A stretch of DNA of 64,000 nucleotides from Amycolatopsis australiensis (GTDB lineage: Bacteria > Actinomycetota > Actinomycetes > Mycobacteriales > Pseudonocardiaceae). A program made the position numbers and the translations under genes. This document shows positions 3,609 through 22,609 of this stretch, in pieces (within the stretch, counting starts at the first letter, position 1; every line of letters begins with the position of its first letter). The notes beneath the pieces are model-generated. The model was not told the DNA's origin. It made no database searches and worked only from the letters and a program-made list of their open reading frames with translations. The stretch is from positions 5,270,001-5,334,000 of the forward strand of contig NZ_FPJG01000006.1 of the NCBI RefSeq assembly GCF_900119165.1. Direction: 5' to 3'.

Positions 3609-4193
3609 TCAGCCGGTGCCGGGCCGGTGCCGCCGCACGGTCTCCTCGACGAGGTCGAGCACCGGGCCGAGCCCGGCGCCGGGCAGGCCCATGGCCAGGT
3701 GCGAGACGAGTCCTTCGAGGACCAGTTCGAGGAACGCGGTGAGGACGTCGACGTCGACGTCGTCGCGCAGGTTCCCGGCCTCGCGCTGGCGCAGCAGGCG
3801 CAGGCGCGTGGCGGTGGTCAGCTGCTCGGACCGCTCGGCCCAGCGGGCGCGGAACTCGGGGTCGGTGCGCAGCCGCCGCGAGACTTCGAGACGGGTGCCG
3901 AGCCAGTCGGCGGGGTGCTCGCCGTCCCCGGCGAGCAGGTCCCGCATGACCTGGACGAGCCCCTGTTCGGCGACGACGTCGGCCATCCGGATGGCGTCGT
4001 CCTCGGCGAGGGCGAGAAAGAGCGACTCCTTGTCCCGGAAGTGGTGGAAGATGGCGCCCCGGGACAGCCCGGTGGCTTCCTCGAGCCGCCGGACTGTGGC
4101 ACCTTCGTAGCCGTAGCGCGCGAAGCAGACGCGGGAGCCATCGAGGATCTGGCGCCGGCGTGCGTCGAGGTGATCCTGGCTTACGCGTGGCAT
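3609..4193 (-). CDS. acnR: AcnR-type TetR-family repressor of aconitase
   Basis: A 194-residue TetR regulator. The helix-turn-helix region is GYEGATVRRLEEATG followed by LSRGAIFHHFRDKESLF (about 25-56). These blocks, and the later RLRTDPEFRARWAE and LELVLEGLVSHLAMG, closely match my memory of Corynebacterium glutamicum AcnR and Mycobacterium Rv1474c, which repress acn. The ATG at 4193 was chosen over longer upstream frames because MPRVSQDHLDARRRQIL is the family's usual N-terminus. In most relatives acnR directly follows acn; here acn is about 15 kb away at 19636-22449. An AcnR-like box lies 38 bp upstream of this start and another upstream of acn, so regulation in trans plus autoregulation is the natural inference. 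Confidence 0.85.
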   Translation of the reverse strand: MPRVSQDHLDARRRQILDGSRVCFARYGYEGATVRRLEEATGLSRGAIFHHFRDKESLFLALAEDDAIRMADVVAEQGLVQVMRDLLAGDGEHPADWLGTRLEVSRRLRTDPEFRARWAERSEQLTTATRLRLLRQREAGNLRDDVDVDVLTAFLELVLEGLVSHLAMGLPGAGLGPVLDLVEETVRRHRPGTG

Positions 4194-4230
4194 CCTGAAA
4201 TCCTGGCATCGCGGACCGGGATCTCGCAAT

Positions 4231-4246
4231 CCGTACGTACGTACTG
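4231..4246. promoter_or_regulatory. AcnR-type operator upstream of acnR
   Basis: The 16-mer CCGTACGTACGTACTG matches the AcnR consensus I remember (CAGNACnnncGTACTG) at every defined position except the second base. It lies 38-53 bp upstream of the acnR start, where it could block acnR transcription. A second copy lies upstream of acn at 22586-22609. Confidence 0.65.
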
Positions 4247-4306
4247 TGACCGGAAGTGCGGGGAACCGAAGAGTCCGCCCCATCGTCGGAACGTTGCGGC
4301 GATTCG

Positions 4307-4336
4307 CTGACACGACATGAGACGGTTGGCTAATCT
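4307..4336 (+). promoter_or_regulatory. Predicted promoter of the ESX-cargo operon
   Basis: CTGACA (4307-4312), an 18-bp spacer and TAATCT (4331-4336) resemble an actinobacterial housekeeping promoter. They sit about 40 bp before the first gene of the PE/DUF3558/PPE/EspG operon. Confidence 0.45.
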
Positions 4337-4377
4337 TTGCCCCGTCACGGTGGGTGAACCGAGGGGAAGGTGCGGGC

Positions 4378-19564: not shown

Positions 19565-19583
19565 GCCCGCGACGGTACCGGAA

Positions 19584-19624
19584 GTCGAAGGCCTCCCCAC
19601 CGTTTCGGTGGGGAGGCCTTCGAC
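19584..19624 (-). terminator. Intrinsic terminator downstream of acn
   Basis: A 19-bp perfect inverted repeat (19584-19602 and 19606-19624) with a TTT loop, eleven bases beyond the acn stop. Its far arm ends 20 bp before the hydrolase start, so it also separates the two minus-strand genes. Confidence 0.88.
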
Positions 19625-19635
19625 CGGGGAAACCC

Positions 19636-22449
19636 TTACGCCCGCGTCATCTTCCGCAGCACGTACTGCAGGATGCCGCCGTTGCGGTAGTAGTCCGCCT
19701 CGCCCGGGGTGTCGATGCGGACGTCCGCGTCGAACTCCACCTTGCTGCCGTCGGACTTCGTCGCCGTCACGTGCACCGTGCGCGGGGTCTCGCCGTCGTT
19801 GAGCTTCGTGATGCCCGCGATGTCGTAGGTCTCGGTGCCGTCCAGCTTCAGCGACGCGGCCGACTCGCCCGCCGGGAACTGCAGCGGGATGACGCCCATG
19901 CCGATCAGGTTCGAGCGGTGGATCCGCTCGAACGACTCGGCGATCACCGCGCGCACGCCCAGCAGGCGCGTGCCCTTGGCCGCCCAGTCACGCGACGAGC
20001 CGGAACCGTACTCCTTGCCGCCCAGCACGACCAGCGGGATGTCCTGCGCCGCGTAGTTCTGCGCCGCGTCGTAGATGAACGCCTGCGGCGCGCCCTCCTG
20101 CGTGAAGTCGCGGGTGTAGCCGCCCTGGACGTCGTCCAGCAGCTGGTTGCGCAGCCGGATGTTCGCGAACGTGCCGCGGATCATCACCTCGTGGTTGCCG
20201 CGCCGCGAGCCGTAGGAGTTGAAGTCCTTCTTCTCCACGCCGTGCTCGGTGAGGTACTGCGCGGCCGGGGTGCCCGGCTTGATCGCGCCGGCGGGGGAGA
20301 TGTGGTCGGTGGTGACCGAGTCGCCCAGCTTCGCCAGCACGCGCGCGCCGGTGATGTCGGTGACCGGGGCCGGCTCCGGCGTCATGCCCTCGAAGTACGG
20401 GGGCTTGCGCACGTAGGTGGACTCCGGGTCCCACTCGAAGGTCTTGCCCTCCGGGGTGGGCAGCGACTTCCAGCGCTCGCCGCCGTCGAAGACGTCCGCG
20501 TAGTCCTTGGTGAACATCTCCTGCGTGATCGCGTGGTCGATGGTCTCCTGGATCTCCTGCGCGGTCGGCCAGATGTCCTTCAGGAAGACGTCGTTGCCGT
20601 CCGTGTCCTGGCCCAGCGGCTGGGTCGCGAAGTCGAAGTCCATCGTGCCGGCCAGCGCGTAGGCGATGACCAGCGGCGGCGACGCGAGGTAGTTCATCTT
20701 CACGTCGGGGTTGATCCGCCCTTCGAAGTTCCGGTTGCCCGAGAGCACCGAGACCGCGGTGAGGTCGTTCTCCTGGATCGCCGCGGAGATCTCGTCGGAG
20801 AGCGGGCCGGAGTTGCCGATGCACGTGGTGCAGCCGTAGCCGACCAGGTGGTAGCCCAGCTTCTCCAGGTACGGCCACAGGTTGGCCTTGGTGTAGTAGT
20901 CGGTGACGACCTGCGAGCCCGGCGCCATCGACGTCTTCACCCACGGCTTGACCGCGAGGCCCTTTTCGACGGCGTTGCGGGCGAGCAGCGCGGCGCCGAG
21001 CATGACCGACGGGTTCGAGGTGTTGGTGCACGAGGTGATCGAGGCGATCACGACGGCGCCGTGGTCGAGGACGAACTCGCCGCGGTCCGGCGTCGAGACC
21101 TTGACCGGCTTGCTCGGGCGGCCCGACGCGCCGTTCGCGGCGGAGGAGGTGACCGGCGCGGCGTCGTCCTCGGCGAACGACAGCGACGGGGCGTCGCTGG
21201 CCGGGAAGGACTCCTCGGAAGCCTCGTCCATCTTGGTGTGCGGCGTGGTGTCCTCGCCGCCGACGTAGTCGTGGATCGACTTGCGGAACGACGACTTCGC
21301 GTCCGACAGCTCGATGCGGTCCTGCGGGCGCTTCGGGCCGGCGATCGACGGGACGACCGTCGAGAGGTCCAGCTCGAGGTACTCGGAGTAGGCCGCCTCG
21401 CGCGACGGGTCGTGCCAGAGGCCCTGCTCCTTGGCGTACGCCTCGACCAGCGCGACCTGCTCGGCCGAGCGGCCGGTCAGCTTGAGGTAGCGGACGGTCT
21501 CGGAGTCGATCGGGAAGATCGCCGCGGTGGAGCCGAACTCCGGGCTCATGTTGCCGATGGTGGCGCGGTTGGCCAGCGGCACCTGGGCGACGCTCTCGCC
21601 GTAGAACTCGACGAACTTGCCGACCACGCCGTGGCGGCGCAGCATCTCGGTGATGGTCAGCACGACGTCGGTGGCGGTGACGCCGGCCGGGATCTCGCCG
21701 GTCAGCTTGAAGCCGACGACCCGCGGGATGAGCATGGACACCGGCTGGCCCAGCATGGCCGCCTCGGCCTCGATGCCGCCGACGCCCCAGCCCAGCACGC
21801 CGAGGCCGTTGACCATGGTGGTGTGCGAGTCGGTGCCGACGCAGGAGTCGGGGTAGGCCTGCCCGTTGCGGGACATCACCGTCCGCGCGAGGTGCTCGAT
21901 GTTGACCTGGTGCACGATGCCGGTGCCCGGCGGGACGACCTTGAACTCGTCGAAGGCGCCCTGGCCCCAGCGCAGGAACTGGTAGCGCTCGCGGTTGCGC
22001 TCGTACTCGATCTCGACGTTGCGCTCGAAGGCGTCGGCGCGGCCGAAGACGTCGATGATCACCGAGTGGTCGATGACCAGCTCGGCCGGGGCGAGGGGGT
22101 TCACCTTGTCCGGGTCGCCGCCGAGGTCGGTGACCGCCTCGCGCATGGTGGCGAGGTCGACGACGCACGGGACGCCGGTGAAGTCCTGCATGATCACGCG
22201 GGCGGGCGTGAACTGGATCTCGATCGACGGGTCGGCGTTCGGGTCCCACGAGCCGAGGGCGCGGATGTGGTCGGCGGTGATGTTCGCGCCGTCCTCGGTG
22301 CGCAGCAGGTTCTCGAGCAGGATCTTCAGGCTGTAGGGCAGGCGCTCGGCGCCTTCGACCTTGTTCAGGCGGAACACCTCGTACGAGGCGTCGCCGACCT
22401 TCAGCGTGTCTTTGGCGCCGAAGCTGTCCTTGCTGGCAGGTGCGGTCAC
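19636..22449 (-). CDS. acn: Aconitate hydratase (aconitase A)
   Basis: A 937-residue monomeric aconitase that isomerises citrate to isocitrate in the TCA cycle with a [4Fe-4S] cluster. Cluster Cys are seen in [10 protein letters not shown] and in [41 protein letters not shown] and [10 protein letters not shown] are active-site motifs. I take GTG 22449 as start because GGAG precedes it by six bases; an in-frame ATG at 22467 would add six residues. An insertion of about 35 residues rich in Asp/Glu/Ser (about 380-420, near [13 protein letters not shown]) is typical of actinobacterial forms. A 24-bp AcnR-like palindrome lies 137 bp upstream and an intrinsic terminator follows. Confidence 0.97.
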
Positions 22450-22585
22450 GTCTAACTCCAGTGGCATGGACTCCGCGCCGGTGCGGCGGTCAAGTCCCGG
22501 GTCAGTTCGGTCGGGTTCGGTGGCAGCGAGTCTTGCGCACCCCCACCGTAGGACCGGATCCGGGATGGCACACCTCGCGACGCCT

Positions 22586-22609
22586 CAAACAGTACGCGTG
22601 TCCTGTTTG
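22586..22609. promoter_or_regulatory. AcnR-type operator upstream of acn
   Basis: The core CAGTACGCGTGTCCTG (22590-22605) matches the remembered AcnR consensus CAGNACnnncGTACTG with two differences. It is extended by CAAA before and TTTG after, making perfect CAAACAG...CTGTTTG outer arms. It lies within the 331-bp gap between acn and the NlpC/P60 gene (22450-22780), where I see no other gene. The site is 137 bp from the acn start and 172 bp from the other. Confidence 0.7.

Follow-up and report, generated by a model that had tools for sequence, protein, structure and literature searches.

Probable dispersed AcnR circuit joining aconitase with a trans-aconitate methyltransferase gene in Amycolatopsis australiensis and other Pseudonocardiaceae

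Amycolatopsis australiensis is a soil bacterium, and its aconitase, encoded by acn, is an enzyme of the citric acid cycle. In a stretch of 64,000 nucleotides of its genome (contig NZ_FPJG01000006.1, positions 5,270,001 to 5,334,000; here called the window), acn is followed 15.4 kb downstream, on the same minus strand, by a gene for a TetR-family protein resembling the aconitase repressor AcnR. This locus raises the question of whether a repressor at such a distance still controls its presumed target, and which other genes it may control. Comparison within the 9.3-Mb genome (G000, with the window on its contig C6) and across related genomes indicated that AcnR probably represses acn, its own gene and tam, the gene for trans-aconitate 2-methyltransferase, in trans, which would couple aconitase to the disposal of trans-aconitate, a toxic by-product that inhibits it. 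The features needed first are listed below; mismatches refer to the 16-bp AcnR consensus CAGNACNNNCGTACTG, as given, citing Krug 2005, in the available text of PMC2723105.

3609..4193, minus strand: acnR orthologue, TetR-family repressor of 194 amino acids (phmmer; Pfam TetR_N, 54.7 bits)
4231..4246, no strand assigned: predicted AcnR-box at acnR, CCGTACGTACGTACTG, at -38 to -53 of the acnR start codon, 1 mismatch on either strand
19636..22449, minus strand: acn, aconitase, GTG start with an in-frame ATG at 22467 (NCBIfam PRK09277/TIGR01341, above cut-off)
22590..22605, minus strand: predicted AcnR-box at acn, CAGGACACGCGTACTG, at -141 to -156 of the GTG, 0 mismatches to the consensus
C6:3652439-3652469 (L079:4440-4470), no strand assigned: two overlapping tandem AcnR-type boxes before tam, at most 1 mismatch on both strands

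In phmmer searches, the AcnR chains of Corynebacterium glutamicum (4af5, 4ac6, and 4aci) were the top PDB match of the TetR protein (213 bits, E = 2.6e-62), and the runner-up chain scored 46 bits (E = 6.7e-11). The match to C. glutamicum AcnR spans residues 11-188 of 194, with 59.6% identity over 178 aligned columns. The closest paralogue in the same genome scored 44 bits and, in the reverse comparison, C. glutamicum AcnR scored at most 46 bits with the 7 best paralogues of the genome. Scanning with NCBIfam gave no model above cut-off for this protein; the assignment therefore rests on the PDB match, the identity and the paralogue comparisons, by which the gene at 3609-4193 is an AcnR orthologue. 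The strong likeness to AcnR claimed in an earlier note, which was made from the window sequence alone, was thus borne out, and the closer homologue elsewhere in the genome that it had named as a possible objection was not found. Amycolatopsis sp. 2-2 encodes a protein 99% identical to that of the window. A record titled Rhodococcus rhodnii (L431) contains an acnR whose product is 88% identical, for which mislabelling or contamination is possible, and one family genome carries a second AcnR-like TetR gene, 43% identical (G119:C1:374608-375111).

Boxes were scored as matches over the 12 specified positions of the consensus. The box at acnR matched at 11 of the 12, whichever strand was read, and autoregulation of acnR through positions 4231-4246 may be inferred from its place. 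At acn, the box matched at 10/12 when read forward (CAGTACGCGTGTCCTG) and at 12/12 on the minus strand. The surrounding 24-mer, CAAACAGTACGCGTGTCCTGTTTG (22586-22609), is an imperfect palindrome, with 20 of its 24 positions equal to its own reverse complement. Operator-like 16-mers at both genes, as proposed in the earlier note, were accordingly present; the one it gave for acn is real but was undersold, being the forward reading of a perfect minus-strand site, and the 24-bp palindrome that it described there was found but is not a perfect one. With its start some 145 bp from the acn box, a divergent NlpC/P60 gene (22751-24121, plus strand) could be controlled from that box too.

Within the window, 9 sites with at most 2 mismatches were counted where 4.2 were expected, and 2 of 100 shuffled sequences reached 9. 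This excess is weak as a case against chance; the case rests instead on the genome-wide rarity of the boxes and on their conservation. A genome scan of the kind suggested in the earlier note, made with the consensus, detected perfect sites solely at acn (C6:5292590) and tam (C6:3652454). At most 1 mismatch was found at 15 forward and 14 reverse sites, and the reversed pattern gave 9 and 11 such sites, so that a single one-mismatch site carries little weight. The only sites with at most 1 mismatch on both strands were the acnR box and the two overlapping tam boxes. The remaining one-mismatch sites had 2 or more mismatches on the opposite strand; they may include further AcnR targets. At 2 mismatches or fewer, the genome gave 351 forward and 348 reverse matches, and this threshold is hence uninformative on the scale of the genome.

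The tam gene starts 17 bp past its tandem boxes and lies 1.6 Mb from acnR. Its product was identified as trans-aconitate 2-methyltransferase by NF010703 (413 bits, cut-off 320), and a 173-amino-acid ORF and dnaG are situated upstream. Paired boxes before tam were also seen in G060 and G040, and in all 3 genomes of genus g26 the tam boxes are at -15 (g- and f-numbers being arbitrary labels for genera and families). Within 1.5 kb of tam, no TetR-like gene was detected in the 30 family genomes whose loci were searched with a profile that recovered 8 of the 8 loci used for its training. A scan of 10 ORFs surrounding tam in L079 gave no MarR match; it did not extend to other MarR proteins of the genome. 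Judged by its boxes, tam makes the predicted circuit of this genome larger than the acn-acnR pair.

Conservation was examined in 120 genomes of the family, among which acnR was found in 111, acn in 120, and tam in 118. The 300 bp upstream were read for 65/111 acnR, 70/120 acn, and 69/118 tam genes, taken from the best-matching loci plus approximately one genome from each additional genus, a choice that over-represents closer relatives. Boxes for tam were counted from -80 to +5, and G011, a 74% complete genome without a detected acnR and with a tam box of 2 mismatches, was excluded from the counts. With at most 2 mismatches allowed, the acn box was present in all 62 acnR-bearing genomes (29 perfect), the acnR box in 52/65, mostly starting at -52 to -54, and the tam box in 47/60 (28 perfect; 34/43 genera). 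Another 11 acnR upstream regions had a box with three mismatches, some of them away from the usual place. Boxes start -71 to -195 from the start of the match at acn, consistent with a leader, at -15 to -65 for tam, and near -53 for acnR. Dinucleotide shuffles gave hits in 1.9-2.3% of regions at 2 mismatches or fewer and in 0.04-0.14% at 1 or fewer, and among 1,091 real 300-bp tiles, cut from 31 acn-acnR spans, the corresponding values were 2.3% and 0. Absence of the boxes from close relatives, which the earlier note would have taken as a refutation, was therefore not observed.

Two genera, g3 and g42 (8 genomes), had no detectable acnR, their best TetR matches scoring 36-41 bits. In these, the acn box was present in 0/8 (three mismatches at best) and the tam box in 1/8, at two mismatches. 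The ergothioneine genes (egt), which in other genomes usually occupy the segment between acn and acnR, were still on the acn side in 7/7 of the g3 and g42 genomes fetched, and on this ground acnR was likely lost there. In a quick acn tree, in which the family did not form a single group, g3 and g42 required two changes; the outgroup rows used for this count include some that likewise lack acnR.

Adjacency to acn is typical of AcnR genes though not needed for function, and it is absent here. Among the 111 acnR-bearing family genomes, acn and acnR were on one contig in 94 and on different contigs in 17. In 89 of the 94, including that of the window, acnR is 2.6-30.1 kb downstream of acn in the same orientation (median 10 kb; within 60 kb was taken as near), and in the other 5 the two genes are 0.38-5.8 Mb apart. 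The latter were scanned separately, and the promoters of G079 and G112 are outside the conservation counts above. The acn box was kept with at most 1 mismatch in 4/4 of the far genomes read (the acn of G050 was left out), which favours action in trans, and the acnR box with at most 2 mismatches in 4/5, the fifth having three mismatches at -53.

These distances bear on the earlier note's account of a neighbouring pair split by an insertion, with the circuit surviving in trans. The genes are indeed apart with operators kept, and survival in trans fits the far genomes; but a split peculiar to this genome is ruled out by the 89/94 genomes sharing the separation. The inserted genes had been described as ESX-like, ergothioneine and other genes. 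Those for ergothioneine are the usual content, with egt homologues inside 26 of the 31 spans, but the ESX-like ones were found only in loci titled Amycolatopsis. The genes concerned in the window are:

10822..15251, plus strand: egtABCD ergothioneine operon, usual core of the acn-acnR segment (EgtB, EgtC, and EgtD above NCBIfam cut-off; EgtA, at 362 bits, just below its cut-off of 370.8)
4779..10803, no strand assigned: further genes between acnR and egtA, namely DUF3558, WXG100-like, EspG, alpha/beta hydrolase, Glu/Leu dehydrogenase-like (minus strand), and LysR regulator (Pfam/NCBIfam; WXG100-like matches below curated cut-offs)

Among loci titled Amycolatopsis, a few of them truncated, 27 of 41 had an EspG gene between egtA and acnR; none of the 39 other named loci had one, nor did any of the 31 spans. 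The Glu/Leu dehydrogenase-like gene was found in 33/41 of the Amycolatopsis loci and in 8/39 of the others. By this distribution, the EspG/WXG100-like genes are an addition of Amycolatopsis to the gap. Downstream of acnR, a pair of genes for CNNM-type membrane proteins is encoded (898-3260, minus strand), with homologues similarly placed in 53/80 named loci.

Outside the family, 29 genomes were chosen, 24 with acnR and 5 without. In f4, f5, f8, f13, and f15, the acn box was found with at most 2 mismatches in 20/21 acnR-bearing genomes, the remaining one having 3, and none of the 5 acnR-less genomes had it even at 3 mismatches or fewer. In f10, acnR is approximately 40 bp upstream of acn, and neither of the two acn regions read had a box with 2 mismatches or fewer. 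The acnR gene follows acn by 10-300 bp in f8 (7/7, 10-296 bp), f4 (5/5), and f13 (3/3), and these adjoining genes suggest that the separation in Pseudonocardiaceae is derived. Separation also occurs in f15, with 2.1-15.5 kb in 3 genomes and different contigs in a fourth, and in f5, with 0.7 and 8.5 kb; because no egt match was found in the gaps fetched (three of f15 and one of f5), these separations look independent. The tam box (at most 2 mismatches) was seen in 0/4 of the acnR-less outside genomes read.

Three known systems were compared. In C. glutamicum, acnR adjoins acn; in A. australiensis, by contrast, 15.4 kb separates the two, acnR carries its own box, and further boxes are present at the tam promoter. 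The C. glutamicum protein (structures 4ac6, 4aci, and 4af5) is otherwise an orthologous TetR protein with the same 16-bp consensus and a box upstream of acn (available text of PMC2723105), and a citrate-Mg2+ site has been reported for it (available text of PMC4746285). Family f8, which we take to be Mycobacteriaceae, differs from the window genome in its short acn-acnR distances, in the lack of an own acnR box (0/9 genomes read) and in 3 of 4 tam genes without a box. The M. tuberculosis protein Rv1474c (Balakrishnan 2017, as cited in PMC10961391) is likewise TetR-like and is reported, in the text available of PMC10961391, to be an iron-responsive repressor that controls aconitase. Streptomyces coelicolor TamR, a MarR-family repressor that is released by citrate and trans-aconitate and controls aconitase (PMC5487221, as far as its text is available), resembles the predicted circuit in the control of aconitase and, judging by its name, of trans-aconitate methyltransferase. 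The candidate here belongs to the TetR family and the likeness is functional only; AcnR would be, if confirmed, a convergent counterpart of TamR.

The dispersed circuit proposed above would operate as follows, its binding, repression, ligand, and physiology being what we infer from the orthology, from the boxes and their conservation, and from the lack of boxes in genomes without acnR, all of which are read from sequence here. AcnR, as a TetR-type dimer, would bind palindromic boxes of the CAGNACNNNCGTACTG type and repress at least 3 promoters in trans, those of acn, acnR, and tam, and on the tam and acnR boxes the dimer would block transcription initiation. With aconitase in short supply or its 4Fe-4S cluster damaged, AcnR would be released by citrate, perhaps also in response to aconitate or iron status, and more aconitase and the enzyme disposing of trans-aconitate would be made together. 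According to the accessible part of PMC5487221, damage to the aconitase cluster raises citrate and frees cis-aconitate, which converts to the trans form. Several points weigh against this proposal. Binding of AcnR to the boxes is a prediction, and another TetR protein of equal specificity, unlinked to tam, may use those at tam. The tam box at 2 mismatches or fewer is missing in 13 of the 60 acnR-bearing family genomes, 6 of which have a box with 3 mismatches, and near the tam start outside the family it is patchy (f15 2/2, f5 1/2, f8 1/4, f13 0/2, and f4 0/3, leaving out G135, a partial match). The acnR-less control consists of just two genera, in which the loss would itself be deduced. Finally, aconitase is the sole AcnR target named for C. 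glutamicum and M. tuberculosis in the portions available of PMC10961391, PMC4746285, and PMC2723105.

It is improbable, in our estimate, that AcnR controls only acn and itself and that the tam boxes serve another, unlinked TetR protein with a similar site. TetR sites are often alike, the same 13 genomes lack a tam box, and the usual half-sites differ, being CAGTAC/AAGTAC at tam and CAGGAC/AAGGAC at acn. This alternative has nevertheless to contend with perfect boxes that occur genome-wide only at acn and tam, with the joint disappearance of both boxes in the two acnR-less genera, bar one 2-mismatch match, and with the lack of a TetR-like gene beside tam in the 30 genomes searched. Moreover, G115 and G119 have tam boxes letter-identical to the acnR box seen most often in the family, which is not necessarily that of their own genomes. 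That all these boxes are coincidental matches and the TetR protein an ordinary efflux regulator is extremely improbable; two-mismatch matches are common enough, as the several hundred in this genome attest, but 60% identity to AcnR and box positions conserved over tens of genera speak otherwise, and the rarity and conservation counts already contradict it.

Alternatively, the divergent egtABCD operon could be the main partner of acnR, with AcnR controlling, or also controlling, ergothioneine synthesis from a shared box, with acn and tam as its trans targets. Both genes were held by 31 of 36 loci, divergently in 31/31; the acnR start was less than 430 bp from the first aligned EgtA residue in 24/31, so that the box region would be shared, and egt is near acnR in 5/5 genomes with acn 0.4-5.8 Mb off. 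The 31 spans, however, were the shortest per genus, and closeness of acnR and egtA is thus over-counted; among 71 named loci with a divergent egtA, only 9 have the pair within 500 bp, which weakens this reading. In the window, some 6.6 kb separates egtA from acnR, and egt still lies near acn in the acnR-less g3 and g42. Retention by egtA of its own AcnR box after parting from acnR was unsupported, since none with 2 mismatches or fewer was found in loci with more than 1 kb between the two genes (0/8 loci read, the window included). Control of egt as the principal role of AcnR is therefore regarded as rather unlikely. A broader version of the dispersed circuit, in which AcnR of Pseudonocardiaceae is a regulator of aconitase damage, coupling aconitase synthesis, tam and, in genera with a short divergent acnR-egtA region, ergothioneine, and maybe sensing aconitate or cluster damage besides citrate, is put forward only tentatively, as a possibility with the chances against it.

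No paper combining AcnR with trans-aconitate, with ergothioneine, or with aconitase and Amycolatopsis was found in literature that leaves out most subscription papers, so novelty is unproven. The AcnR site pattern would mark a small dispersed regulon, extending beyond the aconitase repressor described in the available parts of the literature, and tam gains a testable candidate regulator. The family also offers natural comparisons, with repressor and targets kilobases to megabases apart while operators are kept, and with two genera missing both repressor and operators. If the proposal is true, an enzyme and the remover of its spontaneous by-product would be under one switch in these bacteria, convergent with TamR of Streptomyces.

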